A program made the translations under genes and the position numbers. A model generated the notes under the pieces. That model did no database searches and had not been told where the DNA came from. It saw only the letters and a list, made by a program, of their open reading frames with translations. Positions 34,252-49,353 of a DNA stretch of 64,000 nt are shown here, one piece after another. Every line of letters starts with the position of its first letter. Positions within the stretch are counted from its first letter, which is position 1. Origin of the DNA: Nocardia spumae (GTDB lineage: Bacteria > Actinomycetota > Actinomycetes > Mycobacteriales > Mycobacteriaceae); assembly GCF_020733635.1 (NCBI RefSeq), contig NZ_JAJFZL010000001.1, forward strand, positions 4,650,001 to 4,714,000. The letters run 5' to 3'.

Positions 34252-34878
34252 ATGACCGCCGTGAGGCAGCACCAGACCCCAGCCCCCGTCGTCGTCGACC
34301 TCTCGGCCGCGACCCTGCGCCATCGCCTGCACGACGCGCTGGCGGTGTACGTGGCGGCGATGGACTATCCGCGCGGCACCGAACATCACCGCGCCCCGAT
34401 GTGGGCCGAGCACACCACCCGGCCCGGCTGGCAGGCCGTGGCCGCTGTCGTTCCCGACGCCGACGGCCACGTCGATCTGCGCAAGGCGCCGATCGTCGCG
34501 ATCGCCTACGGCTACCACGGTGCGCCCCATCAGTGGTGGCATCAGCAGGTGCACACCGGGATGCGCCGTTCGGGCTGGCCGGAACACGCGGCGCGGGAAC
34601 TGCTGTCGAACTATTTCGAACTCACCGAACTCCATGTGCACCCGGCGGCGCAGGGACGCGGCATCGGCGAAACCCTGCTGGTGCGACTGCTGGAACAGCG
34701 CACCGAAGCGGCGGTGCTGCTGTCCACCCCGGAGGTCGACCGCGAGGACAATCGCGCGTGGCGGCTGTACCGGCGGCAAGGGTTCACCGATGTGGTCCGC
34801 CATTTCGTCTTCTCCGGCGATACCCGGCGTTTCGCCGTCCTCGGCCGGCAGCTGCCGTTGCGAGTGCCGGCACAGTGA
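34252..34878 (+). CDS. GNAT-family N-acetyltransferase (Rv2170-like)
   Basis: A 208-aa acetyltransferase. The acetyl-CoA site is visible as LTELHVHPAAQGRGIGETLLVRLLE (motif A, Q-G-R-G-I-G), preceded by YHGAPHQWWHQQV and followed by NRAWRLYRRQGFTDVVR. The position before lppM, beside DUF3040 and mraZ, corresponds to M. tuberculosis Rv2170. Its stop overlaps the start of crtO (GTGA), so an ancient core gene and a carotenoid gene share one transcript here. Confidence 0.88.
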   Translation: MTAVRQHQTPAPVVVDLSAATLRHRLHDALAVYVAAMDYPRGTEHHRAPMWAEHTTRPGWQAVAAVVPDADGHVDLRKAPIVAIAYGYHGAPHQWWHQQVHTGMRRSGWPEHAARELLSNYFELTELHVHPAAQGRGIGETLLVRLLEQRTEAAVLLSTPEVDREDNRAWRLYRRQGFTDVVRHFVFSGDTRRFAVLGRQLPLRVPAQ

Positions 34879-36437
34879 CCACCCTGATCATCGGATCCGG
34901 ACACAACGCCCTGGTCGCGGCCTGTTATCTGGCGCGCGACGGACATCCGGTGGAGGTTCTCGAACGCGATGAGGTGCTGGGCGGAGCGGTATCGACCGTG
35001 GAACGCTTCCCCGGCCACCAGGTCGATCGCGGTTCCTCGGCACACATCATGATCCGGCACACCGGGATCGTCGAGGAACTCGAGCTCGCGCGGTTCGGAC
35101 TGCGCTACATCGATTGTGATCCCTGGGCTTTCGCCCCCGCACCCCCCGGGTCGGCGGGCGTTCCGATCGTCTTCCATCGCGATCTCGACCGCACCTGCGC
35201 CTCGATCGAGCGGGCCTGCGGGGCTCGCGACGCCGAGGCCTACCGGCGATTCGCCGGCCTCTGGGGGCCGCGAGCACAGCGCGTGATGCGAGCCTTCGGC
35301 GGCGCGCCCACCCCGGGACGATTCGTGCGGTCGTTCTGGGGGCTGGACGCCCGCGCCGGCGGCAGCGCCCTGTCGCGGGAATTCCTGCAGTCCGGCGACG
35401 CCCTGCTCGACACCTGGTTCGACGACGAGCGGCTCAAGGCCGCGCTGGCCTGGTTCGGCGCGCAATCGGGTCCGCCGATGTCGGAGCCGGGCACCGCGCC
35501 CATGGCCGGATTCGCCGCCCCGATGCACATCCTCCCGCCCGGTCGCGCGGTCGGCGGCAGCGGGGCGCTCACCACCGCGCTGGTGGCCCGCCTGCGCGCC
35601 GATGGCGGGGTCGTCTCACCCGGTGACGCGGTGACCGAACTGCGGCGCACCGGCGACGGCTGGCGGGTCCGCACGGCCGCGGGCCGAAATCTGTTCGCTC
35701 GCACCGTGATCTCGGGCACCCATGTACTGACCACCCTCGACCTGTTGCGGCGCGGCGGATTCGACAGCACCGTGATCGACGACTGGCGACGCCGGATCCG
35801 GGTCGGGCCCGGGATCGGCATGGTGGTGCGCGCCGCCACCACCGGGCTGCCGGCCTACCCCGGGGCCACGACCGCGGAATCCGCGCGCGGACTACAACTG
35901 CTGGTGACCGATCGCCGGCAACTGCGCCTCGGCCATGCCGCCGCGCTGGCCGGGGAACTACCGCCGCGCCCCGCCGTCCTGGCGATGAGTTTCAGCGCCC
36001 TCGATCCGACGATCGCACCGCCCGGTGAACATCAACTGTCGCTGTGGGCGCAATGGCATCCGCATCGGCTCGCCGACGGCAGCGATTGGAGCGCGCACGG
36101 CGACCGCGAGGCCGACCGCATCATCGCCGAGGTCGACACGTTCGCACCGGGTTTCGCGGAGACGGTGCGGCAGCGCCACGTGCAGACCCCTGCCGATCTG
36201 GAGCGTGAGCTCGGCCTGCTCGGCGGCAATGTCATGCATGTCGAGATGTCGCTGGATCAGATGTTCTTCTGGCGTCCGCTGCCCGAGCTGTCCGGACAGC
36301 GGGTGCCGGGCGCGCCCGGACTGTATCTGACCGGCGCCTCGACCCATCCCGGTGGCGGCGTCTCGGGTGCCAGCGGGCGCACCGCGGCCCGGCTGGTGTC
36401 GCGGACGCTGCGGCGTCGTCGTCTCCCCCGGCGATGA
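34875..36437 (+). CDS. crtO: Beta-carotene ketolase CrtO-type (phytoene-desaturase-like FAD protein)
   Basis: A 520-aa FAD-dependent oxidoreductase expected to add a 4-keto group to beta-ionone rings. The N-terminal Rossmann loop is LIIGSGHNALVAACYLA, then ERDEVLGGAVST. DRGSSAHIMIRHTGI and LRYIDCDPWAFAP closely resemble Rhodococcus erythropolis CrtO as I recall it, and the C-terminus has YLTGASTHPGGGVSGASGR. It is unlike the window's CrtI, so it is not a second desaturase copy. GTG 34875 overlaps the GNAT stop; its own stop overlaps cruF (ATGA). Product specificity is inference. Confidence 0.82.
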   Translation: MTTLIIGSGHNALVAACYLARDGHPVEVLERDEVLGGAVSTVERFPGHQVDRGSSAHIMIRHTGIVEELELARFGLRYIDCDPWAFAPAPPGSAGVPIVFHRDLDRTCASIERACGARDAEAYRRFAGLWGPRAQRVMRAFGGAPTPGRFVRSFWGLDARAGGSALSREFLQSGDALLDTWFDDERLKAALAWFGAQSGPPMSEPGTAPMAGFAAPMHILPPGRAVGGSGALTTALVARLRADGGVVSPGDAVTELRRTGDGWRVRTAAGRNLFARTVISGTHVLTTLDLLRRGGFDSTVIDDWRRRIRVGPGIGMVVRAATTGLPAYPGATTAESARGLQLLVTDRRQLRLGHAAALAGELPPRPAVLAMSFSALDPTIAPPGEHQLSLWAQWHPHRLADGSDWSAHGDREADRIIAEVDTFAPGFAETVRQRHVQTPADLERELGLLGGNVMHVEMSLDQMFFWRPLPELSGQRVPGAPGLYLTGASTHPGGGVSGASGRTAARLVSRTLRRRRLPRR

Positions 36438-37282
36438 CCGCCGCACGGTGGCCGGCGCTGACGGCTCTGGCCTGGGTTGCCGCGCAGATCGCCTACCCGC
36501 TCACTGACGGCGCGGCGCGGGATCGGGTCACGGTCCTCGTGGTCGGATTGTCGGCCGCGACCGCGCTGCTGCACGCCCGCGCGGTCCGGGGGCTCGGTTA
36601 CGCGGCCGGATTTCTCCTGATCGTGGCCGGTCTCGGCGGTCTCGCCGAGATGATCGGCACCGCATCCGGATTTCCGTTCGGCTGCTACGGCTACGCGGAC
36701 GGACGACTCGGCCCGGAGTTGGCCGGGGTGCCGCTGCTGATACCGCTGGCGTGGGTGGGCGGGTTGTATCCGATCCGGGTGGCGGCGGGACTGCTGTGCC
36801 GGAGCAGCGGCGCGCAGATCGCGCTCACCGCGGCGGGCGCGGTCGGCTGGGATCTGTTCCTGGATCCACAGATGGTGGACGACGGACAGTGGCGCTGGTG
36901 CTCGGCGCTACCGGGACTGCCCGGCCTGTCCGATATCCCCTACACCAACTATCTCGGCTGGTTCGCGGTCGCGGCGGTGATGACGACGCTGGTGATCGGC
37001 CTCGAACGCCGCTGCCCGGAACGGATCTTCGCGCCCGCGGTGCCGATCGCGGTGTTGCTGTGGACCTGGTTCGGATCGGCGCTGGCACACGCGGCGTTTC
37101 TCGGACTGCCGGTCTCGGCGCTCTACGGCCTGATCGGACTCGGCGTGGTCGCGGTCCCGATGCTGGTGGTGCTCGTGCGAGCGGCGCGCACCGCAGGCGG
37201 CGGCACGCGCCCGGGCGCGGGACCGGATCGAGGAAACCCCGGATTTCCGGGCCGGCCTCCGATGCGGCGAACAGGGCCGTAG
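36434..37282 (+). CDS. cruF: Carotenoid 1,2-hydratase CruF-type membrane protein
   Basis: A 282-aa integral membrane protein with about seven helices. Characteristic segments are GFPFGCYGYADGRLGPELAGVPLLIPLAW, read in part (GCYGY at about 76-80), then AVGWDLFLDPQMVDDGQWRW and IPYTNYLGWF. These are the conserved loops of the CruF/CrtC-analog family that hydrates the psi end of gamma-carotene to give a 1'-hydroxyl. It overlaps crtO by 4 bp. The hydroxyl is the probable attachment point for the glycosyltransferase encoded two genes downstream. Confidence 0.85.
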   Translation: MTAARWPALTALAWVAAQIAYPLTDGAARDRVTVLVVGLSAATALLHARAVRGLGYAAGFLLIVAGLGGLAEMIGTASGFPFGCYGYADGRLGPELAGVPLLIPLAWVGGLYPIRVAAGLLCRSSGAQIALTAAGAVGWDLFLDPQMVDDGQWRWCSALPGLPGLSDIPYTNYLGWFAVAAVMTTLVIGLERRCPERIFAPAVPIAVLLWTWFGSALAHAAFLGLPVSALYGLIGLGVVAVPMLVVLVRAARTAGGGTRPGAGPDRGNPGFPGRPPMRRTGP

Positions 37283-37330
37283 CGCGGCAACGCCCGTCGC
37301 GTGCCGACGATCACGCCGGCGCATGGCACG

Positions 37331-38086
37331 ATGTGTGCCGTGCAGCCGCGTCCGACACTCTCGATGCCTGAGTCGACCCTCGCCCCGTCGCGCCGACACC
37401 GGCGTCATCGCATCTGGTCCGTAGCGTTGCTGGCCGCCCTGCTGGCGCCGTTGCTGACCGGCTGCCTGCGGATGCAGGTGTCGATGGGAGTGTCGTCCAA
37501 CGACCGGGTCTCCGGACATCTGGTCGCCGCGGTCATCCCGGCCAACGACAAGGACAAGGGACCCGAGCTCAAGGCGCCGGAGACACTCGCCACCAAGATC
37601 CGGGTGGAGCCCTACAGCCAGGACGGATACGTCGGCAGCCAGGTCTATTTCGACGATCTGACCTTCGGTGAGGTCCAGCAACTGGGCGCCCTGTCGGATC
37701 AGACCCAGGGCATGTTCACCCTGCAGTTCATCCGGACCGGCGACAAGGTCACGCTCAGTGGTCGGGTGGATCTGAAATCCGTTCCGCCGCAGGGCTCGGA
37801 CGTGCAGTTCACCGTCGCGTTCCCGGCGCGCGTGGCCACCACCAACGGCACCCGGCAAGGTGATTCGACGGTGTCGTGGAAGCTGCCCGCCGGTGATGTC
37901 AGCACCGTGCGCGCCGAGGTGAGCTACGCCGATCCCAACACCCGCTCCTTCGCGGGCTGGGCCGGCATCGTCGGTGGAATCACGCTCGCGGTGGCCGCGA
38001 TCGTCGCCGTGCTGGCATATCTGACCCGCAATCCCACACCGCCGTGGCGCCCGCGCGCCGAACGGCGCGTCGGACAGGACGCCTGA
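37331..38086 (+). CDS. lppM: LppM-family lipoprotein
   Basis: A ~251-aa envelope lipoprotein. A signal segment (IWSVALLAALLAPLLTGC, lipobox LLTGC with Cys near residue 45) is followed by a beta-rich domain (MQVSMGVSSNDRVSGHLVA) and one C-terminal membrane helix (GGITLAVAAIVAVLAYLTR). M. tuberculosis LppM (Rv2171) has this same layout and affects phagosome trafficking. The start is uncertain: ATG 37331, GTG 37340 or ATG 37364, none with a clear ribosome binding site. It sits between two carotenoid genes. Confidence 0.85.
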   Translation: MCAVQPRPTLSMPESTLAPSRRHRRHRIWSVALLAALLAPLLTGCLRMQVSMGVSSNDRVSGHLVAAVIPANDKDKGPELKAPETLATKIRVEPYSQDGYVGSQVYFDDLTFGEVQQLGALSDQTQGMFTLQFIRTGDKVTLSGRVDLKSVPPQGSDVQFTVAFPARVATTNGTRQGDSTVSWKLPAGDVSTVRAEVSYADPNTRSFAGWAGIVGGITLAVAAIVAVLAYLTRNPTPPWRPRAERRVGQDA

Positions 38087-38153
38087 TCCGGGGGCCGATG
38101 GGCACCGGGGTGACCAATCCTCCGGCCCCGGCGAACAGACCGGAGACGTCGCC

Positions 38154-39329
38154 GTGAACCTGTCCGGTCCGCTCGTCGCCGCGGGCACGGCGATCGCCGG
38201 CGCCGGCTGCGCGGCGGCACTGGTGAATCGGCTGGGGATGCGCCGGTTGCGCCCCGAATCCGCACCCGTGATCGAGCCGGTGGTGGTCGTCGTCCCGGCC
38301 CGCGACGAGGCCTCCCGGCTGCCGCACCTGATCGCCGATCTGCGTGCCCAGCAAGGTATTTCCCGGCTTCGGGTATGGATTCTCGACGATGGTTCCACCG
38401 ACGGCACCTTCCCGGCCGCGGTCACGGCGATCGGCGACGACGAGCGCTTCTCGGTCGTCTCCGCCGATCTGCCTCCGGCACCGGGCTGGACCGGTAAGAC
38501 GGCCGCGTGCGCGCGGCTGGCCGAGATCGCGGGCATTACGACCGATTCCACGGATCCGCCCCCGGGCGCGCTGATCTTCCTCGACGCCGATGTGCGGTTG
38601 CGGCCGCGGGCACTCGCCGCGGCGGTGAGTGAATTGCGCCGCAGTGGTGCGGGTTTGGTGTCGCCCTGGCCCTGTCAGCGAGCCGGATCGGTGGCCGAGG
38701 CCCTGGTGCAGCCACTGCTGTGCTGGTCGTGGGCGACGACACTGCCGGTGCGGCTCGCCGATCGGAGTCTGCGGCCGTCGACGGCGGTGGCGTGCGGGCA
38801 GTTCCTGGTCTTCGACACCATGGTCTACCGCGCGGTCGGCGGACATACCGCCGTAGCCGGATCGATCACCGAGGATCTAGCGCTGGCCCGGGTGCTGCGC
38901 CGGGCCGGACACCGCACCGCGCTGGTCGCCGCCGGACCGCTCGCGAGCACCCGGATGTACAGGGGCGCACGGGAAGTCGACGAGGGATATACCCGCTGGC
39001 TGTGGTCGGCCTACGGTTCCGCCGCGGGCACCCTCGCGGTGGGGTCGGTGGCCGCGCTGGCCTACGTGGCGCCCGCGCTGGCCGCGGTCTTCGGGACCGG
39101 ACGGGTACGCCGCACGGGCGTCCTCGGTTACGGGCTCGGCGTCACCGGCCGATTGCTCGCCCGGTCCCTCGAGTCCGGGACCGGGCCGCGCGGCGCCGAC
39201 CTCGTCGCCGCCCTCGCACATCCGGTATCGGTCGCCGCGTATCTGCGGCTGTCGGCGCGGTCGCACCGGTTACGCCGGCGCGGCGCGCTGACCTGGAAGG
39301 GACGGCCGGTGGTCAGGGCACCGAGGTGA
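38154..39329 (+). CDS. GT2 glycosyltransferase, CruG-like (carotenoid glycosylation)
   Basis: A 391-aa membrane-associated family 2 glycosyltransferase. Motifs: VVVVPARDEASRLP (nucleotide-sugar site), WILDDGSTDGTF, LIFLDADVRLRP (DxD-like), GSITEDLALARVLRR (general-base Asp) and GYTRWLWSAY. One N-terminal and several C-terminal hydrophobic segments anchor it. Proximity to cruF and crtO and overall form suggest CruG, which glycosylates the 2' or 1' hydroxyl of myxol-type carotenoids; specificity is inferred from context. GTG 38154 was chosen; the 3' end overlaps the convergent gene by 17 bp. Confidence 0.75.
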   Translation: MNLSGPLVAAGTAIAGAGCAAALVNRLGMRRLRPESAPVIEPVVVVVPARDEASRLPHLIADLRAQQGISRLRVWILDDGSTDGTFPAAVTAIGDDERFSVVSADLPPAPGWTGKTAACARLAEIAGITTDSTDPPPGALIFLDADVRLRPRALAAAVSELRRSGAGLVSPWPCQRAGSVAEALVQPLLCWSWATTLPVRLADRSLRPSTAVACGQFLVFDTMVYRAVGGHTAVAGSITEDLALARVLRRAGHRTALVAAGPLASTRMYRGAREVDEGYTRWLWSAYGSAAGTLAVGSVAALAYVAPALAAVFGTGRVRRTGVLGYGLGVTGRLLARSLESGTGPRGADLVAALAHPVSVAAYLRLSARSHRLRRRGALTWKGRPVVRAPR

Positions 39330-40017
39330 TGCCGACGGTCGGCAGGAACAGGCAGGTGTGATCGCCGTTGCGCACCGTGCCGAACATCGCGGCGAGCACC
39401 GTGCCCGAACCCGTGTCCACCGGGACCGCGCGCACCCCGCCCAGCGGGAGCGCGGACAGGAAGAAATTCCGAATCCCCTGCTCGAAGGCCGGCCGCACCT
39501 CCGGCGGCAGATTCCGCGGAATCATCGACTCGACGATCTGCGACATCGGCCCCATGGCCGCGAATCCGCCGCGGCCGGTCGAGGCGTTGAACCAGGCGAC
39601 CTGCATACCCGAGGTGTCGGCGGTGTCGGGACCGAGTCCGTAGGGTACGAACGCGAACATCGTCTGCCCGGATTTCACCGCGGACAGATCCAGTCCGGGC
39701 ACCGGCACCGCGAGCTTCGGCCACGGACCGGGCACCGCGCCGGCCAGCGCCGGCACCAGTCCCAGCGTGCTGCCGTCCTGGCAGAACGCCGCCGCCGACG
39801 GGTACAGGAACGGCTCGATTCCGAGCTGTTTCAAGCTGTCCACCGCGGCTTGGTAGGCGCCGAGCAAATCGGTGGCGGCGGCCGGTGTTCCGACTGCCGC
39901 GATCGCCGCCCGGGGATCGGGGGGCGCGGCACCGGCGGTCACCGCGCCCGCGAAGGTGAGCGCGCCGGTCACGGCGAGCACGGCGGAAAGGCGGACGACA
40001 CTGCTAACCACGGCCAT
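39313..40017 (-). CDS. Secreted protein of unknown function
   Basis: A 234-aa exported protein with a Sec signal peptide (LSAVLAVTGALTFAGAVTAGAAPP). The mature part has two cysteines (AAFCQDG and DHTCLFLP) that may pair, and the motifs MFAFVPYGLGPDTADTSGM and QVAWFNASTGRGG, a pattern I have seen in uncharacterised secreted proteins of nocardiae and mycobacteria. ATG 40017 is preceded by GGAGA. It is inserted against the direction of the surrounding carotenoid genes, convergent with the glycosyltransferase. No function can be given. Confidence 0.72.
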   Translation of the reverse strand: MAVVSSVVRLSAVLAVTGALTFAGAVTAGAAPPDPRAAIAAVGTPAAATDLLGAYQAAVDSLKQLGIEPFLYPSAAAFCQDGSTLGLVPALAGAVPGPWPKLAVPVPGLDLSAVKSGQTMFAFVPYGLGPDTADTSGMQVAWFNASTGRGGFAAMGPMSQIVESMIPRNLPPEVRPAFEQGIRNFFLSALPLGGVRAVPVDTGSGTVLAAMFGTVRNGDHTCLFLPTVGITSVP

Positions 40018-40163
40018 CGGGGTCTCCTGCATCAGGCGGAACATCCGCACCAGGTCGGTCCGCGGGTCACGCACACACGACTCGGGACCTCCGCGTCATC
40101 ACGGTGCAGAGACGGTACCGCCGACAGCCGCGAATCCGCGGCAACTCGCCGGTGTGGCGTCGA

Positions 40164-41162
40164 TCAGGCGCTGACGACCGCCGGAGTCACCGTATAGCCC
40201 AGATTCGTCAGCACCTCGGTGGTGGCCTTGGCGAAGTTCAGAGTGATGAAATGCAGGCAGGGCGCGCCCTCGTCGATCAGCCGCTGCCCGATCTCGGTGG
40301 CGATCTCGATACCGGCCGCGCGCACCGCGTTGCGGTTGGCCTCCGGATCGTTACCGGCGGCCCGCTCCAGCCGCTGCATCACCTGCGCGGGCAGGGCCCG
40401 GCCGGACAGCTCCTCGGCCCGCTGCACCGTGCGCAGCGAGGTGATCGGCATCAACTCCGGGATGATTGGCTTGGCGCCCTGCTCGGCGTCGAAGGCCGCG
40501 ACCCGATCCCGCAGGCGCAGATAGTGTTCCACGTCGAAGAACATCTGGGTGATCGAATACTCCGCTCCCGCACGCAGTTTCGACACCAAAAAGCGGGTGT
40601 CGTGGTCGAGATCCGGAGAGCGGTAGTGGCCCTGCGGGAACGACGCCACCCCGACGTGGAAATCGCCGAGACCGCACACCATGCGAACCAGCTCCTCGGC
40701 GTATTCGACGCCCTCGGGGTGTTTGGTCCACTCCCCCAGCGGATCACCGGGCGGATCTCCGCGCAGGACGAGCATGTTGCGGATGCCTGCGTCGGCGTAG
40801 CTGCCGATGATGGATCGCAGCTCGGCCACACTGTGCCCGACCGCGGTCAGATGGGCGACGGTGAGCAGAGTGGTTTCGCGGGCCAGCTGACCGGTGATCC
40901 TGGCGGTGCGATCGCGGGTGGACCCACCCGCGCCGTAGGTCATCGAGACGAAGGCCGGATGCATCCGCTCGAATTCGCGGGCGGCACGCCACAGCCGCGC
41001 CTCGGCCGCCTCGTCGCGTGGCGGGTTGAATTCCACGGAGAACGGCACGGTGCCGTCGGGACGGGGACGCAGCTGCCCCACCACGGAGGGAGTTCCGGAA
41101 ACCTGCGGCGTCCGGGAAGGTCGGCCAGGGGTCGATCGTCCCCGTACGTTGTCGAAACTCAC
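40164..41162 (-). CDS. metF: Methylenetetrahydrofolate reductase
   Basis: A 332-aa FAD-dependent TIM-barrel enzyme reducing 5,10-methylene-THF to 5-methyl-THF for methionine synthesis. Family signatures: PFSVEFNPPRDEA near the start, FVSMTYGAGGSTRDRT, RNMLVLRGDPPGD, and GAEYSITQMFFDVEHY. It corresponds to M. tuberculosis Rv2172c in position. Start GTG 41162 (SFDNVRGR) is likely but lacks a strong ribosome binding site. It is divergent from crtE. Confidence 0.92.
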   Translation of the reverse strand: MSFDNVRGRSTPGRPSRTPQVSGTPSVVGQLRPRPDGTVPFSVEFNPPRDEAAEARLWRAAREFERMHPAFVSMTYGAGGSTRDRTARITGQLARETTLLTVAHLTAVGHSVAELRSIIGSYADAGIRNMLVLRGDPPGDPLGEWTKHPEGVEYAEELVRMVCGLGDFHVGVASFPQGHYRSPDLDHDTRFLVSKLRAGAEYSITQMFFDVEHYLRLRDRVAAFDAEQGAKPIIPELMPITSLRTVQRAEELSGRALPAQVMQRLERAAGNDPEANRNAVRAAGIEIATEIGQRLIDEGAPCLHFITLNFAKATTEVLTNLGYTVTPAVVSA

Positions 41163-41365
41163 CGGTCCAGTGTAGTAGGGGCGCTGGTCCCGGCGGTGCG
41201 CCACGGTGTCTTCGCCCCCGGGCCGGGCACCCCGTGGGCGTATCCACCGCCAGCCGGGCGCGACGCCCCTCCCGCGCCGATCCGGCCTGCCGGCCACGGT
41301 GCGCGGCCGCCGGCGAGCGCGCGGGTGCCTGCCACTGCGACCGAGTTCACGCGGTGACGACTGCC

Positions 41366-41396
41366 TTGTCGAGCTGTGAAATCGACGCAGTAAAGT
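41366..41396 (+). promoter_or_regulatory. Possible crtE promoter in the metF-crtE gap
   Basis: TTGTCG (41366-41371) and TAAAGT (41391-41396) could be -35 and -10 elements with a 19-bp spacer, about 100 bp before the crtE start. Support is weak. The whole divergent gap (41163-41498, 336 bp) contains no gene I can support and should carry both promoters. Confidence 0.3.
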
Positions 41397-41498
41397 TCTC
41401 GGTGATCCGGCCGGTCACCCGCCGGAACGGATCGATACGCGATCGGCGCACGGGGGGTCTTCTGCCCGCCGATGCGACGAAACTATCTGGAGGTTGCG

Positions 41499-42611
41499 TT
41501 GTCCGTTGGTCCGGCCAGCCCGGCACGCCCGGTGCCGAACGACTCCGCCGAGCTGATCAGCGCGGTCGAGCAGGCACTGACCGACTTCTTCGCGAGTCGC
41601 GGCGAACTGGTCGAGGAGCTGGGTCCGGTCTTCGTCTCGGCCGCCTCCGCCCTCGAGGATTTCGTGCTGCGCGGCGGTAAGCGCACCCGCCCCTCGTTCG
41701 CCTGGACCGGATGGCTGGGTGCTGGTGGCGATCCGGCCGGTGAGCAGGCCTGCGCCGTACTCACCGCCTGCTCGGCCCTGGAGCTGGTGCAGGCGTGCGC
41801 GCTGATCCACGACGACATCATCGACTCCTCCCGCACCCGGCGCGGCTTCCCCACCGTGCACGTGGACTTCGAGCACCGTCACCGCGATCGCGCCTGGGGC
41901 GGGGATTCCGGGCATTTCGGGGTGAGCGTCGCCATCCTGATCGGTGATCTCGCCCTGTCGTGGGCCGACGACATGGTGGCGGCGGCCGGTCTCGACGCCG
42001 AGTCGCGCGCGCGCTTCGCGCCGGTGTGGGCCGCGATGCGCACCGAGGTCATGGGCGGGCAGTTACTCGATGTGCACGGCGAGGCCGGGGCCGACGATTC
42101 GGTGGCCGCGGCGCTGCGGATCAACCGGTACAAGACCGCCGCCTACACCGTCGAGCGGCCGCTGCATCTGGGGGCCGCGCTGGCGGGCGCCGATGCCGGA
42201 CTGATCACCGCCTACCGGGAGTTCGGCACGGATATCGGCATCGCCTTCCAGCTGCGCGACGACCTGCTCGGCGTCTTCGGCGATCCGGCCGTCACCGGTA
42301 AGCCGTCCGGGGACGATCTGCGCGAGGGGAAGCGCACCGTCCTGGTGGCTGAGGCGCTGCGCCGCGCCGATGCCACCGATCCCGCGGCGGCCCAGCTGCT
42401 ACGCGACTCGCTGGGCGCCGATCTCAGCGCCGAACAGGTCACCGCACTGCGCACCATCATCACCGACCTCGGCGCGGTCGACGATGTGGAGCGGCGCATC
42501 GGTGAGCTCACCGAGCGGGGCCTGACCGCGCTGGCGGCCAGCGCGGTCACCCCAGAAGCCGGAGCGAAGCTGCGGGCCATGGCCTTGGCCGCCACCCGGC
42601 GGGTGGCATGA
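41499..42611 (+). CDS. crtE: Geranylgeranyl diphosphate synthase (CrtE / IdsA2-like)
   Basis: A 370-aa trans-isoprenyl diphosphate synthase supplying C20 precursor for carotenoids. GGKRTRP (about 59-65), the first Asp-rich motif HDDIID (104-109) and the second, FQLRDDLLGVFGD (near 250-260), are all present. TTG 41499 is chosen because CTGGAGG lies five bases upstream; the ATG at 41472 has no ribosome binding site. It occupies the place of M. tuberculosis Rv2173 (idsA2), so here a core isoprenoid gene doubles as crtE. It overlaps crtI (ATGA). Confidence 0.88.
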   Translation: MSVGPASPARPVPNDSAELISAVEQALTDFFASRGELVEELGPVFVSAASALEDFVLRGGKRTRPSFAWTGWLGAGGDPAGEQACAVLTACSALELVQACALIHDDIIDSSRTRRGFPTVHVDFEHRHRDRAWGGDSGHFGVSVAILIGDLALSWADDMVAAAGLDAESRARFAPVWAAMRTEVMGGQLLDVHGEAGADDSVAAALRINRYKTAAYTVERPLHLGAALAGADAGLITAYREFGTDIGIAFQLRDDLLGVFGDPAVTGKPSGDDLREGKRTVLVAEALRRADATDPAAAQLLRDSLGADLSAEQVTALRTIITDLGAVDDVERRIGELTERGLTALAASAVTPEAGAKLRAMALAATRRVA

Positions 42612-44185
42612 AAACCGTTGCGGGGCCGACGGATCGAATCGTCGTCGTCGGCGCCGGCCTGTCCGGTCTGGCCGCCGCGCTGTATCTGACCGGCGCCGGT
42701 CGCACGGTCACCCTGCTCGAGCGCGCCGACCATCCCGGCGGCCGTGTCGGCGTCTACCGCGGACCGGATTACGAGATCGATTCCGGCGCCACCGTTCTGA
42801 CCCTGCCCGGCCTCGTCGACGACGCACTGGCCGCGGTGGGCTCCGATGCCGCGGCCCACGATCTGCGCATCCACCGCCTCGATCCGGCCTATCGGGCGCG
42901 GTTCGCCGACGACGCCACCATCGCGGTGTACTCCGATCCCGAGCTGATGGCCGCCGAGGTGCGACGGGTCCGCGGTGCGGCCCAGGAGCGGCGTTATCTG
43001 GAACTACGGCAGTGGCTGGCCCGGATCTACACCGCCGCCTACGGCGAGTTCATGGACACCAATTTCGACTCGCCACTGGATATGGTTCGCATCCCCGCCA
43101 AGCGCGCGGCGCTGTGGGAATTGCTGCGACTGGGCGCGTTCGGCCGCCTCGGCCCGCGGGTGGGCCGCATCCTGGACGATCCGACATTGGCCCGGCTGTT
43201 CACCTTCCAGGCCCTCTACGCCGGAACCGCCCCCGGCCAGGCGCTGGCCGTCTACGGCGCGATTCCGCATATGGACACCTCCCTGGGGGTGTACTTCCCG
43301 ACCGGTGGCATGCGCGCGATCAGCGCGGCGCTCGCGGACGCCTTCACCGGCGCCGGAGGGCAGCTGGAGCTGAACTGCGAGGTCACCGGCATCGAGTATC
43401 GGGACGGGCGCGCCCGCCGCGTCCGGACCGCGGACGGGCGCGCGCACGAGTGCGACGTGGTGGTGCTGACCGCCGACCTCGGCTCCCTGGACCGGTTCGG
43501 CATCCACCGCCGCCGCCCGCTGCGCGCAGCGCCGTCGGCGGTCGTCGCACATGGTCTGATCCCGGCCGAGATCGCGGCGCAGTGGCCGCTGCAAGCCCAC
43601 CACACCATCGATTTCGGGCAGGAGTGGGACCGCACCTTCACCGAGATCGCCGCCCGGCCGCACCGGGGGCGGCTGATGAGTGATCCGTCGCTGCTGCTCA
43701 CCCGCCCGGCACTGTCGGATCCCGGCCAGTTCGTCACCCGCGGCACCCGCCGGTACGAGCCGCTGTCCCTGCTGGCGCCGTGCCCGAATCTGCGTGCGGC
43801 ACCACTGGATTGGCCCCGGATCGCCCCGGCCTACCTCGGCGAGCTGCTGCGGGTGCTGGAAGCACGCGGCTACCGCGGCATCGCCGATCACTTCACCGCC
43901 GACCATCTCGACACCCCGCGGACCTGGTACGACAGCGGGATGATCGCCGGCACTCCGTTCTCCGCGGCACACCTGTTCCGCCAGACCGGGCCGTTCCGGA
44001 CCCGCAACCTCGCGCGCACCCCCGCCAACGTCGTGCTGGCCGGGTGCGGGACCACGCCGGGTGTCGGGGTGCCGACGGCACTGTTATCGGGCAAACTGGC
44101 CGCTGAACGTGTTATCGGCACCTTCCGGCACGTCGTCGGCGCCACCGCGCCGACCGGCGCGCTAGGGTTGCCGACAACCCATTAA
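42608..44185 (+). CDS. crtI: Phytoene desaturase
   Basis: A 525-aa FAD enzyme that desaturates phytoene to lycopene in the bacterial CrtI manner. The Rossmann loop is VVVGAGLSGLAAALYLTGAG (12-31), followed by ERADHPGGRVGVY. The C-terminal carotenoid-desaturase signature is CGTTPGVGVPTALLSGKLAAE. Its start overlaps crtE by 4 bp; crtB lies one gene further on, with mptA between. Confidence 0.93.
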   Translation: MKTVAGPTDRIVVVGAGLSGLAAALYLTGAGRTVTLLERADHPGGRVGVYRGPDYEIDSGATVLTLPGLVDDALAAVGSDAAAHDLRIHRLDPAYRARFADDATIAVYSDPELMAAEVRRVRGAAQERRYLELRQWLARIYTAAYGEFMDTNFDSPLDMVRIPAKRAALWELLRLGAFGRLGPRVGRILDDPTLARLFTFQALYAGTAPGQALAVYGAIPHMDTSLGVYFPTGGMRAISAALADAFTGAGGQLELNCEVTGIEYRDGRARRVRTADGRAHECDVVVLTADLGSLDRFGIHRRRPLRAAPSAVVAHGLIPAEIAAQWPLQAHHTIDFGQEWDRTFTEIAARPHRGRLMSDPSLLLTRPALSDPGQFVTRGTRRYEPLSLLAPCPNLRAAPLDWPRIAPAYLGELLRVLEARGYRGIADHFTADHLDTPRTWYDSGMIAGTPFSAAHLFRQTGPFRTRNLARTPANVVLAGCGTTPGVGVPTALLSGKLAAERVIGTFRHVVGATAPTGALGLPTTH

Positions 44186-44254
44186 ACTGGCCCGCGACCA
44201 CACCACCAGCCGCGGTCTCGACCGCGCACCGACATCCCGGGGGGAAGACGAACC

Positions 44255-45895
44255 ATGCCGACCCCCGATATGGATACCGCACCCGTGACATCGCCTGTGA
44301 CCAGCACGGTTACCACGGCACCGGTGACCGCGCTACCGATTCCGGAGCCCACCGCGCACACCGTCCGCTGGTGGACGCGCTGGGCCGGCGACTTCTTCCG
44401 CAGCCCCGAGGGCCACGCCGCGTTGCTCGGCTTCTGGGGTGCGGTCATGATCACCTTCGGCGGTCTGGGCGCCGGCGCGGTGCGCCGCAGCGATCCGCTG
44501 CTGGAATCGGCCCATCTGTCCTGGCTGCGTTTCGGCCACGGCTACGCGCTGGCCACCATCGTGGTGTGGCTGGGCGTGTTGTCGATGATCATCGCCTGGG
44601 TCCGGTTGGGCCGCATCACCATCGGGACCGGCCCGTACCGCGGCGCCGACCGATCCGCGAGCGCCGTCACCCTCAACGAGTTGCGTGTGACCGTCGGCAT
44701 CTGGATCCTGCCGCTGCTGTTCGCCGTCCCGATGTTCAGCCAGGACGTCTACTCGTATCTGGCGCAGGGCGCGCTGCTTCGTGACGGTTTCGACCCCTAC
44801 ACGGTCGGACCGGTGGTCAATCCCGGTGTGCTGCTGGACAATGTGAGCCCCGTGTGGACCACCACCACCGCTCCCTACGGCCCGATCTTCCTGCTCATGG
44901 GCCAGGCCATCACCAGTATCACCGGTGACAACGTGGTCGCCGGAACCATCGCGATGCGGCTGGTCATGCTGCCGGGCCTGGCACTGATGATGTGGGCCGT
45001 CCCGCACCTGACCAAACACCTCGGCGGCAAACCGACGGTGGCGCTGTGGCTGGCGGTGCTCAATCCGCTGGTGCTCATCCATCTCATCGGCGGCGTGCAC
45101 AACGAGATGCTGATGGTGGGGCTGATGGCCGCCGGTATCGCACTGGTGCTCGAACGTCACCACGCGGCGGGCATCGTGGTGGTCGCGATCGGCGTCGCGA
45201 TCAAGGCGACCGCGGGGGTGGCGCTGCCGTTCCTGGTGTGGATCTGGATGATTCACGAACGCGAACGGCGGGCGGCGGAGAACAAAGGGCCGCTCCCCCA
45301 TCCGATTCGAACGTTCGTCAAGATCGCGGGGCTCGGGGTATCGGTCTTCGCGGTGGTCTTCGTGGCCGCCTCGGCCGCCGCCGGGGTCGGCATCGGCTGG
45401 CTCACCGCGCTGTCGGGATCGAAGAAGATCATCAACTGGCTGTCGCTGCCGACCATCATGGCGCACATGATCACCTGGGTGACGCCGCTGAACCTGGGCG
45501 AGGTGCTGGTGTGGACGCGCGGGCTCTGCGCGGTCGCACTGGTGCTGATCCTGGCCTGGACCTGGTGGCGCTACAAGAACACCGAACGGCAGGCGGTGAT
45601 GGGTATTCTCATCGCCTTCGTCGCGATCGTGATCCTGTCCCCCGCCGCGCTGCCCTGGTACTACTCGTGGCCGCTGGCGCTGGCAGCCGGTTTCGCCATG
45701 TCCACCACGACCCTGATGGTGCTGGTGGGGCTGTGCACCTGGTTGATGCTGGTGTTCCAGCCGGGCGGTTCCATCGGCCTCTACAACATCTGGCACGTCG
45801 CCGCGGCCACCTTCGTGGCGGTGGTGGCGGCGCTGTCGCTGCGCAAGGTGGATCCGCTGCGGCTGCGCGCGGACTCGGGCAGATCCAAGCAATGA
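44255..45895 (+). CDS. mptA: Alpha-(1->6)-mannosyltransferase MptA-type
   Basis: A 546-aa GT-C fold polyprenyl-phosphomannose-dependent mannosyltransferase extending the lipomannan backbone. About twelve to thirteen membrane helices; the extracytoplasmic catalytic loop is FSQDVYSYLAQGALLRDGFDPY, followed by TTTAPYGPIFLL and IGGVHNEMLMVGLMAAG, all typical of MptA/MptB. Position matches M. tuberculosis Rv2174 (mptA). ATG 44255 has GGGGGGAAG upstream. It is sandwiched between crtI (69 bp) and crtB (4-bp overlap), so lipoglycan and carotenoid genes share a transcript. Confidence 0.9.
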   Translation: MPTPDMDTAPVTSPVTSTVTTAPVTALPIPEPTAHTVRWWTRWAGDFFRSPEGHAALLGFWGAVMITFGGLGAGAVRRSDPLLESAHLSWLRFGHGYALATIVVWLGVLSMIIAWVRLGRITIGTGPYRGADRSASAVTLNELRVTVGIWILPLLFAVPMFSQDVYSYLAQGALLRDGFDPYTVGPVVNPGVLLDNVSPVWTTTTAPYGPIFLLMGQAITSITGDNVVAGTIAMRLVMLPGLALMMWAVPHLTKHLGGKPTVALWLAVLNPLVLIHLIGGVHNEMLMVGLMAAGIALVLERHHAAGIVVVAIGVAIKATAGVALPFLVWIWMIHERERRAAENKGPLPHPIRTFVKIAGLGVSVFAVVFVAASAAAGVGIGWLTALSGSKKIINWLSLPTIMAHMITWVTPLNLGEVLVWTRGLCAVALVLILAWTWWRYKNTERQAVMGILIAFVAIVILSPAALPWYYSWPLALAAGFAMSTTTLMVLVGLCTWLMLVFQPGGSIGLYNIWHVAAATFVAVVAALSLRKVDPLRLRADSGRSKQ

Positions 45896-46971
45896 CCCGC
45901 CGCGGTGCCGACGCCGATCCGGCCGCCGCGTACCGGCACTGCAAGGCGATCGCCGCCGCCCATGGCCGCACCTATTTCCTGGCCACCCGGCTGCTCTCGG
46001 CACCTCGCCGGGCCGCGGTGCACGCCCTCTACGCCTTTGCCCGCACCGTCGACGACATCGTCGATCACGCCGAGGACACCGGTGCGGCGCCGACGCGGGC
46101 CCGCGCCCGGCTGGACCGGATCGAACTGTGCCTGCGTGCGGCCCTGGCCCCCGCCGCGCCCGGCGCGGCATCGGGCGACGAGCAGGTGATCGACGACCGT
46201 GTGCTGACCGCGCTGGTGGATACCGTCACCCGATTCGATGTTGCGCCCGAACACTTCTGGACCTTCCTCGACGCGATGCGCATGGACGTGCCGGGTGGCC
46301 CGGCGTTCCGCGACCGGTATGCCGATATGGCCGAGTTGCGGGAGTACATGCGCGGTTCGGCGGCGGCCATCGGGCTGCAACTGCTGCCGATCCTCGGCAC
46401 CGTCGGCCCGGTCACCGAGGCCGAGCCGGCCGCCGCGGCCCTCGGCGAGGCCTTCCAGCTCACCAATTTCCTGCGCGATGTGGGCGAGGATCTCGACCGC
46501 GGGCGCGTCTACCTGCCGGCCGACGCCCTGGCCGCCTTCGGCGTGAGCACCGATCTACTCGCCCACTGCCGGCACACCGGCCGCACCGACACGCGGGTCC
46601 GCCGCGCACTCGCCCACCTGATCGCGGTCAACCGTGCCGTCTACCGCACCGCGATGCCCGGAATCGATCTGTTGCAGCCGCGGGTCCGGCCCGCGATCCG
46701 GACCGCGGCCGTGCTGTACGCCGAGATCCTCGACCGGATCGAGGACCACGACTACGCCGTATTCGACCGGCGCGCAACGGTTCCCACATCGCGGCGGCTC
46801 CGGGTCGCGATCACCGAATTCGGCACCGGACTCCGGCTGCCAGCGGTATCAGCGGTGACCGCGACGCCGGCTCAGAACGGTTCGGCGGCGGCGCGACGCA
46901 CGACCTCACGCGCCAGCGGGCCGTGGATGGCGTCGACGGGCCGCCCGGGCAGCGATTCGTCCACGGTGTAG
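45892..46971 (+). CDS. crtB: Phytoene synthase
   Basis: Condenses two GGPP to phytoene; 359 aa. The two Asp-rich motifs are VDDIVDHAED (53-62) and NFLRDVGEDLDRGRVYLP (about 192-210). The conserved core ends near residue 320; the last ~33 codons lie opposite the 3' end of the convergent HTH gene (46872-46971) and look unlike any family sequence. ATG 45892 overlaps the mptA stop (ATGA). Confidence 0.92.
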   Translation: MTRRGADADPAAAYRHCKAIAAAHGRTYFLATRLLSAPRRAAVHALYAFARTVDDIVDHAEDTGAAPTRARARLDRIELCLRAALAPAAPGAASGDEQVIDDRVLTALVDTVTRFDVAPEHFWTFLDAMRMDVPGGPAFRDRYADMAELREYMRGSAAAIGLQLLPILGTVGPVTEAEPAAAALGEAFQLTNFLRDVGEDLDRGRVYLPADALAAFGVSTDLLAHCRHTGRTDTRVRRALAHLIAVNRAVYRTAMPGIDLLQPRVRPAIRTAAVLYAEILDRIEDHDYAVFDRRATVPTSRRLRVAITEFGTGLRLPAVSAVTATPAQNGSAAARRTTSRASGPWMASTGRPGSDSSTV

Positions 46972-47246
46972 ACCCACTGGAGGATTTCCTCGTCGCTGTA
47001 CTTCGCGTCCCGCATCACGGTGATGAGACCGGGCAGTGGTTTGACCACCGCACCCGAGGAATCGAAGAAATCCTTCGGGATTCCGGCGATGCCGCCGCGG
47101 CGGATCGCGATCAACTGATGATCGCGCAGCATCTGATGCACTTTGGTCACCGCGATACCGAGTTGGTCGGCCACGTCCGGCAACGGGAGCAGGGTGACCG
47201 ATTCGGGAACGACATCATCGCTGCAAGGAAATGCACTCACGGGCAC
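46872..47246 (-). CDS. Rv2175c-like DNA-binding protein
   Basis: A 124-aa helix-turn-helix protein. LPLPDVADQLGIAVTKVHQML is the HTH, followed by RRGGIAGIPKDFF and VVKPLPGLITVM, a close match to M. tuberculosis Rv2175c, which binds DNA and is phosphorylated by PknL. It is divergent from pknL (151-bp gap), keeping the kinase/substrate pairing. GTG 47246 is the chosen start; GTG 47240 is possible. Its last 100 bp overlap crtB on the other strand. Confidence 0.88.
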   Translation of the reverse strand: MPVSAFPCSDDVVPESVTLLPLPDVADQLGIAVTKVHQMLRDHQLIAIRRGGIAGIPKDFFDSSGAVVKPLPGLITVMRDAKYSDEEILQWVYTVDESLPGRPVDAIHGPLAREVVRRAAAEPF

Positions 47247-47397
47247 AACGGTAGCCCGTCCGCGTGGAGGTACAGCGTACGCCCCGTTTCCCGACCACCA
47301 TGAGCACGTCCTGAGAGACCGTGACGGCGCGCGCCTATACGATCGGGTATGCCGTCGTGGGGGCGGCACCCGCTAGGTGAAACTCGGAGGACAGCAG

Positions 47398-49353
47398 TTG
47401 ATCGGCCAGATGCTGGACGGGCGCTACCGCATCGACGCGCCGATCGCGCGCGGTGGGATGTCGATGGTTTTCCGGGGAGTCGACACCCGGCTGGACCGGC
47501 CCGTGGCGATCAAGGTGATGGACCCGAAGTTCTCCGGCGATCCACAGTTCTTGACCCGGTTCGAATTCGAGGCCCGCTCCGTGGCCAAACTGAAGCATTC
47601 GTCGCTGGTCGCGGTGTACGACCAGGGCATCGACGGCGAGTACCCGTTCCTCATCATGGAGCTGGTGGAGGGCGGCACCCTGCGCGAACTGCTGCGCGAA
47701 CGCGGGCCGATGCCACCGCACGCGGTGCGCGCGGTCGCCGAGCCGGTCCTGCGCGCGATCGGCGTCGCGCACGCCGCCGGCCTGGTCCATCGCGATATCA
47801 AACCGGAGAACGTGCTGATCTCCGATGCCGGCGAGGTCAAGATCGCCGATTTCGGGCTGGTCCGGGCGGTGGCCGGATCGAATCTGACCTCGGCCAGCGT
47901 CATCCTCGGTACCGCGGCGTATCTGTCGCCCGAACAGGTCACCGCCGGTAGCGCCGATGCCCGCAGCGATGTCTACTCCTTCGGCATCCTGATCTTCGAA
48001 ATGCTCACCGGCCGCGTTCCCTTCACCGGCGACACCTCGCTCTCGATCGCCTATCAGCGGGTGGAGAAGGATGTGCCGAGCCCGAGCGACTTCATCGACG
48101 GGGTGCCGCCGGAATTCGACGAGCTGGTCGCCCGGGCCACTGCCCGTGAGCCCGCCCATCGCTTCGCCGACGCCACCGAGATGGCGATCGAACTGCATCG
48201 CCTGGCGACCGCCCTACAGCTGCCCGACTATCGCGTGCCCGCACCGCGCGAATCGGCCGAACACCTGTCCGCGCGCTATCGAGTGCCGCAGACCCCGGCG
48301 GCGATGCACGAACCCCCGCACGTCGGCGGCCCGGTCACCGAGGCCACGACCAGGCTGGCCGCCGAACCCTCGCACACCAAGGTCATGACGGCGGCCCATC
48401 CGATGCCCGAGCCCGAGCGGCCGCGTCAGCCACCGCAGCCGCCCTACCGGGAGGAATTCCTGCCCGATCGAGGCCGATCGCGGCGCCGGGTGCTGATCTG
48501 GGCGGCCGTGGTCGTCACGCTGGCACTGCTGCTGGGTATCGGCGGCTGGTGGCTGGGTGTCGGCCGGTATTCCTCGGTCCCGCCGATCGCCGGGATGAGC
48601 AGTGAACAGGCCGCCACGACTCTGAAGAACGCCGGGTTCGGCACGACGACGCGCGACCGGGCCTCCGACATCATCCCGGTCGGCGGGGTGGTGGGCACCG
48701 ATCCCTCGGCCGGGGCGCGGGTGCTGAAGGGATCGACGGTCGCGGTGCTGGTGTCGAGCGGGCAGCCGCATGTGCCCGAATTCCAGCCGGGCCAGGATGC
48801 GAAGACGGTGAATCAGCTCATCCGCGATGCCGGATTGCAGCCCGTCGACAGCGGCGAGCGCCCCAGCACGGCGCCCAAGGGTTCGGTGGCACAACTGGAA
48901 CCGTCGCCCGGAACCGTTCTGCCCACCGGCGCCCAGGTGAAGGTCTATCGCAGTAAGGGTTCGCAGCCGGTGCGCCTGCCCGATCTGCGCGGCAAGACAG
49001 TGGACGAAGCCAAATCGGTGCTGCAGAACGCGGGGATCTCGGTGGCGGGCACCCGCGACGAATTCGATGGCAGGGTCAAGCCGGGGCAGGTCGCCGGCAC
49101 CGATCCCGCGGCCGGCACGCAGGTGCTGTCCGGCAGTTCGGTCACCCTGATCATCTCCAATTCGGTTCAGGTTCCGGATGTCACGGGTAAGAACGCCGCA
49201 GCGGCCCGCACCGAACTAGAGGGTCTGGGCCTGAAAGTGGTGCTGAACCAGGTGTTCAGTGGCGACCGGGGCACGGTGCGCGTGCAGTCACCGTTCGCCG
49301 GGTCGAATGTGGCGCCCGGATCCACGGTGACGCTCACGGTCCTGCCCTTCTGA
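47398..49353 (+). CDS. pknL: Serine/threonine kinase PknL with four PASTA domains
   Basis: A 651-aa transmembrane receptor kinase. The kinase domain (about 10-275) has PIARGGMSMVF, the ATP lysine VAIKV (Lys39), HRDIKPENVL (Asp133), DFG (151-153) and GTAAYLSPEQ. A Pro/Ala/Glu juxtamembrane linker leads to one membrane helix near 365-387 (IWAAVVVTLALLLGIGGWWL). Outside are four PASTA repeats of ~65 aa, opening PPIAGMS, PEFQPG, PDLRGK and PDVTGK. M. tuberculosis PknL lacks PASTA domains; corynebacterial PknL has them. TTG 47398 is chosen because GGAGG lies seven bases upstream; GTG 47377 has no such site. Confidence 0.93.
   Translation: MIGQMLDGRYRIDAPIARGGMSMVFRGVDTRLDRPVAIKVMDPKFSGDPQFLTRFEFEARSVAKLKHSSLVAVYDQGIDGEYPFLIMELVEGGTLRELLRERGPMPPHAVRAVAEPVLRAIGVAHAAGLVHRDIKPENVLISDAGEVKIADFGLVRAVAGSNLTSASVILGTAAYLSPEQVTAGSADARSDVYSFGILIFEMLTGRVPFTGDTSLSIAYQRVEKDVPSPSDFIDGVPPEFDELVARATAREPAHRFADATEMAIELHRLATALQLPDYRVPAPRESAEHLSARYRVPQTPAAMHEPPHVGGPVTEATTRLAAEPSHTKVMTAAHPMPEPERPRQPPQPPYREEFLPDRGRSRRRVLIWAAVVVTLALLLGIGGWWLGVGRYSSVPPIAGMSSEQAATTLKNAGFGTTTRDRASDIIPVGGVVGTDPSAGARVLKGSTVAVLVSSGQPHVPEFQPGQDAKTVNQLIRDAGLQPVDSGERPSTAPKGSVAQLEPSPGTVLPTGAQVKVYRSKGSQPVRLPDLRGKTVDEAKSVLQNAGISVAGTRDEFDGRVKPGQVAGTDPAAGTQVLSGSSVTLIISNSVQVPDVTGKNAAAARTELEGLGLKVVLNQVFSGDRGTVRVQSPFAGSNVAPGSTVTLTVLPF

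Follow-up and report, generated by a model that had tools for sequence, protein, structure and literature searches.

The Rv2170–Rv2176 region of Mycobacterium tuberculosis is much studied, and two of its genes, Rv2173 and Rv2174, were suggested to possibly form a transcriptional unit (PMC3229680, in excerpt). For Nocardia, a carotenoid gene cluster family, GCF 3, is said to be conserved in all genomes, with a suspected glycosylated monocyclic product (PMC7413640, in excerpt). For Rhodococcus, a family of saccharide/terpene (carotene) hybrid clusters was found in all strains studied, and its authors judged that each such hybrid was probably two clusters lying side by side with no relation to each other (PMC5550956, in excerpt). 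In Corynebacterium glutamicum, IdsA is the major geranylgeranyl diphosphate synthase and is encoded away from the decaprenoxanthin crt operon, and mptA is named in a figure legend among the genes drawn near crtR homologues (PMC5401885, in excerpt). Here we analyze a 64,000-nucleotide stretch of the Nocardia spumae genome (the window; contig NZ_JAJFZL010000001.1, positions 4,650,001 to 4,714,000), in which carotenoid (crt) genes, presumably for an orange pigment of the cell surface, are interleaved with the backbone genes of an Rv2170–Rv2176 type block.

The window shares with the M. tuberculosis type block the order GNAT–lppM–idsA2–mptA–Rv2175c–pknL and the strand pattern. The mycobacterial side, as seen in named Mycobacterium loci, is without crtO, cruF, cruG, crtI, and crtB, and its gene at the place of metF belongs to another family (PF19345, three of three) than that of the window (PF02219). 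Rv2173 has W five residues ahead of the aspartate-rich motif (PMC12035560, in excerpt), whereas the window CrtE has the small residue C five positions ahead of its DDxxD motif. Nocardia GCF 3, which is probably either this locus or the second crt set described below, resembles the window in its clustering of CrtE, CrtB, and CrtI and has the cyclase in a separate cluster; mptA, lppM, and the interleaving are not mentioned in the excerpted account (PMC7413640). The Rhodococcus hybrid is likely this same block and was judged to be two adjacent clusters, whereas the genes of the window alternate one by one. The crt operon of C. glutamicum belongs to the C50 type and has CrtR, a regulator of the MarR family (PMC5401885, in excerpt), and none of the block genes scanned in the window is of the MarR family. 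NCBIfam curators evidently noticed the crt–mptA neighborhood earlier, since their MptA model, TIGR03459, carries the short name crt_membr. CruF and CruG are a hydratase and glycosyltransferase pair; the window likewise has a CruF-family protein and a GT2 glycosyltransferase that are kept or missing together, and differs in that both score below the equivalog cut-offs and lppM lies between them. A full-text literature search with subscription papers mostly outside its scope returned no account of gene-by-gene interleaving or of its mycobacterial loss, which leaves the absence of such an account unproven.

We consider it rather likely that this is a mixed envelope-lipid locus of ancient origin, probably organized as two operons, with a core that pre-dates the family, with crtO, cruF, and cruG in place by the family ancestor, and with subsequent loss in mycobacteria. 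Gene content and order, their conservation, the tree positions, and the pairing of cruF with cruG in presence and absence were observed directly; the two transcripts, the product structure, its mycolation, and any regulatory reason for mixing pigment and mannan genes go beyond these observations and are inferred. With gene families assigned by Pfam and NCBIfam profiles and PDB sequence matches as added support, the block in the window reads as follows:

34252..34878, +, GNAT acetyltransferase, backbone (PF13508/PF00583 over cut-off; 3′ GTGA overlap with crtO)
34875..36437, +, crtO-like carotene ketolase (PF01593/PF13450)
36434..37282, +, cruF-like carotenoid 1′,2′-hydratase (PF04240; ATGA overlap with crtO)
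37301..38086, +, lppM lipoprotein, backbone (PF21946, 199 bits; start codon uncertain)
38154..39329, +, GT2 glycosyltransferase, cruG-like by context (PF13506/PF00535)
39313..40074, −, secreted-looking protein without Pfam family, between GT2 and metF
40164..41084, −, metF-like methylenetetrahydrofolate reductase (MTHFR), splitting the block (PF02219, 273 bits; start codon uncertain)
41085..41471, no strand, divergent metF/crtE gap of 387 nt (from coordinates)
41472..42611, +, crtE/idsA2 polyprenyl diphosphate synthase, backbone and pigment gene in one (PF00348)
42608..44185, +, crtI phytoene desaturase (TIGR02734; ATGA overlap with crtE)
44255..45895, +, mptA alpha-1,6-mannopyranosyltransferase, backbone (TIGR03459)
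45892..46971, +, crtB phytoene synthase (PF00494, SQS_PSY, 234 bits; ATGA overlap with mptA)
46872..47246, −, Rv2175c-type winged helix-turn-helix protein, backbone (PF21531, PF18367; 3′ end overlaps crtB)
47377..49353, +, pknL-like Ser/Thr kinase with four PASTA stretches, right border (PF00069, PF03793)

The GNAT at 34252..34878 we take to be Rv2170-like, its Rv number coming from a first-pass annotation made from the letters alone; Rv numbers beyond those met in papers or databases likewise come from that annotation or are general background. The profiles and coordinates bear out the thirteen genes in the order it had given. Exact 4-bp overlaps are found at four same-strand junctions (GTGA at 34875; ATGA at 36434, 42608, and 45892): it had listed GNAT/crtO, crtE/crtI, and mptA/crtB, and the fourth, crtO/cruF, is added here. 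Its statement that a pigment gene sits in nearly every interval needs narrowing, in that four of the six backbone intervals contain one and the metF/crtE and Rv2175c-type/pknL intervals contain none.

We gathered 80 CruF-centered regions (taken from the 98 family genomes, of 161 searched, in which CruF was matched), 20 MptA-centered regions, further regions, and 80 named loci, the last an uneven sample made up of the best 80 among 587 confirmed stretches, and annotated the loci by tblastn with the window proteins. Excluding loci without GNAT, lppM, crtE, mptA, or the Rv2175c type gave 120 complete, deduplicated loci of the window's family; the window GNAT was entered by hand in this count, as an overlapping HEPN query had masked it in the tblastn annotation. 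The full interleaved set was present in 78 of the 120, and this conservation of gene order excludes chance. The mixed order recurs in many genomes across 18 genus codes, is widely kept in the family rather than peculiar to N. spumae, and disposes of an assembly artefact, which the first-pass annotation had named as a possible refutation. The cross-genus comparison that it had proposed found only the backbone in Mycobacterium, with the same genes and order in 10/10 named loci (M. tuberculosis not among them). Together with 14/14 block loci of genus code g2, presumably mycobacteria, these make up the 24 of 120 family loci without any crt gene. The genes cruF and cruG occurred together in 84 of the 120 loci, were both absent from 36, and were never found apart, despite lppM between them. 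Among the 70 named loci outside Mycobacterium, crtI or crtB lay beside mptA in 69, the exception (L195) being an mptA-like match alone; all five pigment genes fell within the stretch in 44, and 19 had crtI and no lppM in the stretch (5 on short contigs, and 14 of Nocardia with ~10 kb upstream).

As two genes, metF and the Rv2175c-type one, lie on the opposite strand, a single transcript over the whole block is ruled out, and two same-strand runs are left: GNAT–crtO–cruF–lppM–cruG and crtE–crtI–mptA–crtB. Intervals were counted in the family loci among 181 distinct loci, excluding gaps that hold the secreted-protein gene, locus L007 (no mptA in its stretch), and the g5 loci (genes inserted between crtE and mptA). 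Gaps above 600 nt occurred in 3/727 same-strand and 25/474 strand-switch intervals; with the limit set at 1500 nt, the counts were 0 and 12, respectively, the intervals being mutually dependent. At the junctions, where possible start codons were scored and duplicates and outgroups were included, a crtB start was possible −20 to +30 nt from the mptA stop in 145/147 cases, 83 of them with an exact 4-bp overlap. The crtO/cruF spacing fell within the same range in 113/121, with an exact overlap possible in 99/121. Elsewhere an exact overlap was possible less regularly (GNAT/crtO 72/115, lppM/cruG 49/122, crtE/crtI 33/155, cruF/lppM 17/122, and crtI/mptA 7/150), and of 40 junctions with mptA immediately after crtE, 28 allowed a start at −20 to +30 nt. 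From these counts, translational coupling appears well conserved at mptA/crtB and crtO/cruF, and not at crtI/mptA. We favor two transcripts, one for each run, because tight spacing is conserved and insertions are scarce within the runs. The likely promoter place of the second run is the 387-nt metF/crtE gap, whose counterparts across 149 family loci, with duplicates counted, have a median length of 240 nt. A scan for promoter-like and terminator-like sites found nothing above chance (0 against 0.9 in shuffles, and 3 against 3.0). The conserved spacing fits two operons and is not by itself proof that pigment and mannan need each other.

The backbone tree was inferred by a quick method and rooted on family code f12, presumably Pseudonocardiaceae. 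Its deepest family branch consisted of L049 and L054, both with the full set, and nine g2 rows without crt genes were nested within the family beside crt-bearing genera; the tree required five changes each for crtO, cruF, and cruG, seven for crtI, and eight for crtB. The family block copies formed a single clade for CrtI (100/99), where L049 and L054 again adjoined the outgroup, and a single clade for CrtB (96/89), and the block copies of f12, f7, and f10 fell outside both. Outside the family, the crtE–crtI–mptA–crtB core was seen in f12 (L106, L117, L161, and L163) and f7 (L247), and an f10 locus (L250) reads GNAT–crtO–metF(−)–crtI–mptA–crtB with no crtE seen. Two of the four loci of genus code g6, which has small genomes and presumably stands for corynebacteria, retain crtI or both crtI and crtB (L145, crtE–crtI–mptA; L144, crtE–crtI–mptA–crtB). 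Since the deepest family branch is full, the core is found in other families, and the mycobacterial crt clusters are of another lineage, the choice that the first-pass annotation had left between an ancestral interleaved form and later threading is largely decided for the former. Mycobacteria would have lost crtO, cruF, cruG, crtI, and crtB from the block, and corynebacterium-like and other lineages would have lost part of the set. The core itself appears older than the family. The genes crtO, cruF, and cruG, none of which was seen in any of the 15 block-bearing f12 loci, were probably added to this older core and in place by the family's common ancestor. A switch of CrtE to a short-chain enzyme upon crt loss, marked by W before the aspartate-rich motif, is not general: the 14 g2 loci have C in 10, S in 1, F in 2, and W in 1.

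The absence of crtO, cruF, and cruG from those f12 loci could also be read as a sign of recent threading, in which the Nocardia/Rhodococcus lineage would have received crt genes singly in a block resembling that of mycobacteria. For the core this is largely refuted, and as a whole we think it very improbable: the full set stands on the deepest family branch, the basal branching of the CrtI tree matches that of the backbone, and corynebacterium-like L144 and L145 as well as loci of f12, f7, and f10 hold the core or most of it, the f10 locus with crtO beside GNAT. An apparent 3′ crtI remnant also lies between crtE and mptA in an f6 locus (L123:9443-9535, a short stretch resembling the CrtI C terminus, 37 bits only). 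Conversely, nothing need have been lost if the crtE–crtI–crtB clusters found elsewhere in mycobacteria were moved block genes, and such clusters are indeed frequent: a strong CrtB match lies away from the block in 27/37 g2 genomes, and of 12 such loci fetched, 11 were of g2, all with crtI beside crtB. The window genome, however, has a second crtE–crtI–crtB set of its own ~290 kb upstream of the block (G000:C1:4386000-4405999; L141:5657-10601), with which the sampled mycobacterial copies (six g2 rows for CrtB and five for CrtI) make up a distinct clade at 100/100 in both trees, and 7/11 other g1 genomes carry a second CrtB copy besides the block genes. The block genes were therefore lost and not moved; the CrtI and CrtB trees rule out relocation for the sampled rows, we give it next to no credence overall, and the pigments of mycobacteria seem to come from another gene lineage than the block. 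Other second sets differ: a further group unites L158, a copy from g6, with the clusters of g4, and L159 (g2) sits on a very long branch without a clear place. The second set of the window genome is divergent from a CarH-like MerR/B12-binding regulator, which suggests a light-controlled second pigment pathway.

A more serious contender is passive synteny, in which an ancestral crt insertion entered a slowly rearranging region and pigment and mannan genes are unrelated; we hold it to be a real possibility, though somewhat short of even. The region keeps its order in mycobacteria even without crt genes, so passive synteny may explain part of the pattern; the block tolerates insertions and gene losses, GNAT, with no known envelope role, is also kept, and an MTHFR of another family stands at the mycobacterial metF place. 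Against it, insertions are rarer within the same-strand runs than at the strand switches, and the tight spacing of mptA/crtB and crtO/cruF favors cotranscription, although this is not by itself a functional link. Going further in the other direction, the block could be one outer-envelope unit in which pigment glycolipid and lipomannan draw on the same isoprenoids from CrtE, mptA and crtB are coupled in translation, and LppM, encoded between hydratase and glycosyltransferase, handles the carotenoid glycolipid, and the mycobacterial LppM, MptA, and IdsA2 would then be the remainder of a carotenoid-glycolipid machine; this we find unlikely. The reading that we prefer remains the ancient mixed locus with two probable operons. 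It would make the mycobacterial idsA2–mptA pair the remnant of a run with crtI and crtB around mptA, and it questions the published view of the Rhodococcus saccharide/terpene neighborhood, likely this block, as probably two unrelated clusters (PMC5550956, in excerpt). Should mptA and crtB prove to be cotranscribed, expression would tie the output of pigment to that of lipomannan.

Several observations weigh against the ancient mixed locus or temper it. The backbone tree was built from the block genes, crtE included, with no independent markers, and it applied a bit threshold under which L103 counts as having no crtB, whereas the locus annotation lists this gene as a weak match. In a larger tree, the family CrtB has weak support (50/96). 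The outgroups give no uniform picture: among the 28 f12 loci, crtI and crtB occur together in 4, crtI alone in 4, crtB alone in 2 (weakly in L103), and neither in 5, and the block is not shown in 13; L249 (f2) has crtE–mptA without crt genes and L248 (f8) mptA only. Partial decay is common, with 18 of the 120 family loci intermediate; with O for crtO, F for cruF, G for cruG, I for crtI, and B for crtB, these are OFGI in 4, O only in 4, O--IB in 4, ---IB in 3, OFG-B in 2, and ---I in 1. In the 14 named Nocardia loci mentioned above, the ~10 kb covered upstream of mptA stop short of the first run, whose presence is mostly unseen; two of them (L196 and L216) have cruG at the edge of the stretch. 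A comparable g1 genome (G278; L081 and L104) has an intact first run past 12 kb of DNA inserted between metF and the gene for the secreted protein. Insertions do occur within the same-strand runs, the cruF/lppM gap exceeding 1.3 kb in L006, L027, and L007 (1452 nt in L007) and the mptA/crtB gap of L054 being 1.4 kb. Given the second crt set of the window genome, the block copies may not be the sole source of lycopene. Finally, the enzyme names below the family level (CrtO, CruF, CruG, and CrtE/IdsA) are weaker, as NCBIfam cut-offs were missed.

The profile scores behind the gene names are of two kinds. MptA reached 654 bits against a cut-off of 439.4 (TIGR03459), CrtI 389 bits against 238.1 (TIGR02734, phytoene desaturase family), and CruF 112.9 bits against 25 at the family level (PF04240). 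The equivalog models gave 60.7 bits against 400 (NF045693) and 83.8 against 154.7 (TIGR03460) for CruF and 260.6 bits (E 2.8e-77) against 1000 (NF045689) for CrtO, which are thus CruF-like and CrtO-like only. For the GT2, the CruG model gave 67.4 bits against 600 (NF045692) and was outscored by the HpnB model at 105.8 bits, itself below its cut-off of 379.25. The CrtE/IdsA equivalog scores were likewise under the NCBIfam cut-offs. Sequence matches in the PDB were found for LppM (2nc8, E 7.4e-39), the Rv2175c-type protein (2kfs), and CrtE (3lk5, 360.8 bits; 8f8f, 311.1 bits).

In the pathway that these names suggest, CrtE, CrtB, and CrtI would produce lycopene, which a lycopene cyclase encoded elsewhere would convert to gamma-carotene; CrtO would add a keto group to the ring, CruF would hydrate the open end, and the CruG-like GT2 would then glucosylate it. 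The likely product is a keto-gamma-carotene glucoside, monocyclic and hydrated and glycosylated at the open end. Candidate cyclase-like genes outside the block (L142:8923-10152, −; L143:9847-11112, +) score over the PF05834 cut-off and below that of TIGR01790 (190 and 146 against 209.5 bits). If Rhodococcus is a guide, mycolation of the sugar may follow in the window's organism, and the pigment would end up alongside lipomannan as a glycolipid of the outer envelope. Mycolate esters of a monocyclic carotenoid glucoside were described in R. rhodochrous (PMC4365757, in excerpt), and because these are envelope-type glycolipids, a contrast of pigment versus envelope may mislead, the pigment itself perhaps being an envelope lipid. 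The block of R. erythropolis NBRC 15567 (L171) keeps crtO and lacks cruF and cruG, which are also absent from the blocks of HNM0569 (L178) and SMB37 (L215). At E 1e-10, no CruF match was found anywhere in these three genomes, the same query matching 98/161 family genomes. For strain AN12, 4-keto-gamma-carotene and gamma-carotene were reported (PMC10534354, in excerpt). For the Nocardia carotenoid, we predict that lineages with cruF and cruG make the glucoside, possibly mycolated, and that lineages without them stop at the keto-carotene.

The metF place sets a limit to the claim that the mycobacterial backbone order is kept, which stands for the 10/10 named Mycobacterium loci in all but this gene. 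The window metF query matched nothing in 24/24 mycobacterial loci (tblastn), where the lppM–crtE gap is 1.1–1.3 kb in 20 and 74–139 nt in 4, the place thus being either occupied by another gene or empty. The gap genes tested, three of three and all on the minus strand, matched PF19345, "Mycobacterial methylenetetrahydrofolate reductase", at 525–540 bits, and not PF02219:

L222:7756-8889, −, PF19345 gene at the metF place in Mycobacterium (Pfam)
L224:7767-8870, −, PF19345 gene at the metF place in Mycobacterium (Pfam)
L243:7808-8872, −, PF19345 gene at the metF place in Mycobacterium (Pfam)

As these are MTHFR genes of a different family, the function was apparently kept at this place while the gene family was exchanged in mycobacteria. 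The equation of the window metF with Rv2172c as orthologues was rejected, the match being one of position and not of family.

Smaller observations concern individual lineages. The secreted-looking protein at 39313-40074 was found in 7/80 named loci, all titled Nocardia. In three g5 loci (L085, L086, and L087), crtO is kept after GNAT as an orphan in a block without cruF, cruG, crtI, and crtB; no CrtB match was found in 3/3 of these genomes, and genes that by eye resemble those of a siderophore-type ABC transporter lie between crtE and mptA after the loss of crtI. Five g4 loci (L072, L075, L077, L078, and L082) have a different crt cluster with crtE, cruF, cruG, a crtI-like, and a crtB-like gene and no mptA in the stretch, and the block in the genome of L078 (L095) retains crtO alone. 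A second CruF match lies elsewhere in genomes G333, G377, G303, and G323; in G377, whose block (L044) shows no crtB, it is within ~2 kb of a CrtB match. L183 (Antrihabitans) and L052 have a gene resembling crtB, with 40% identity in L052, past the Rv2175c-type gene and not after mptA. Tandem pairs of mptA-like genes occur in L247 (f7) and L123 (f6).

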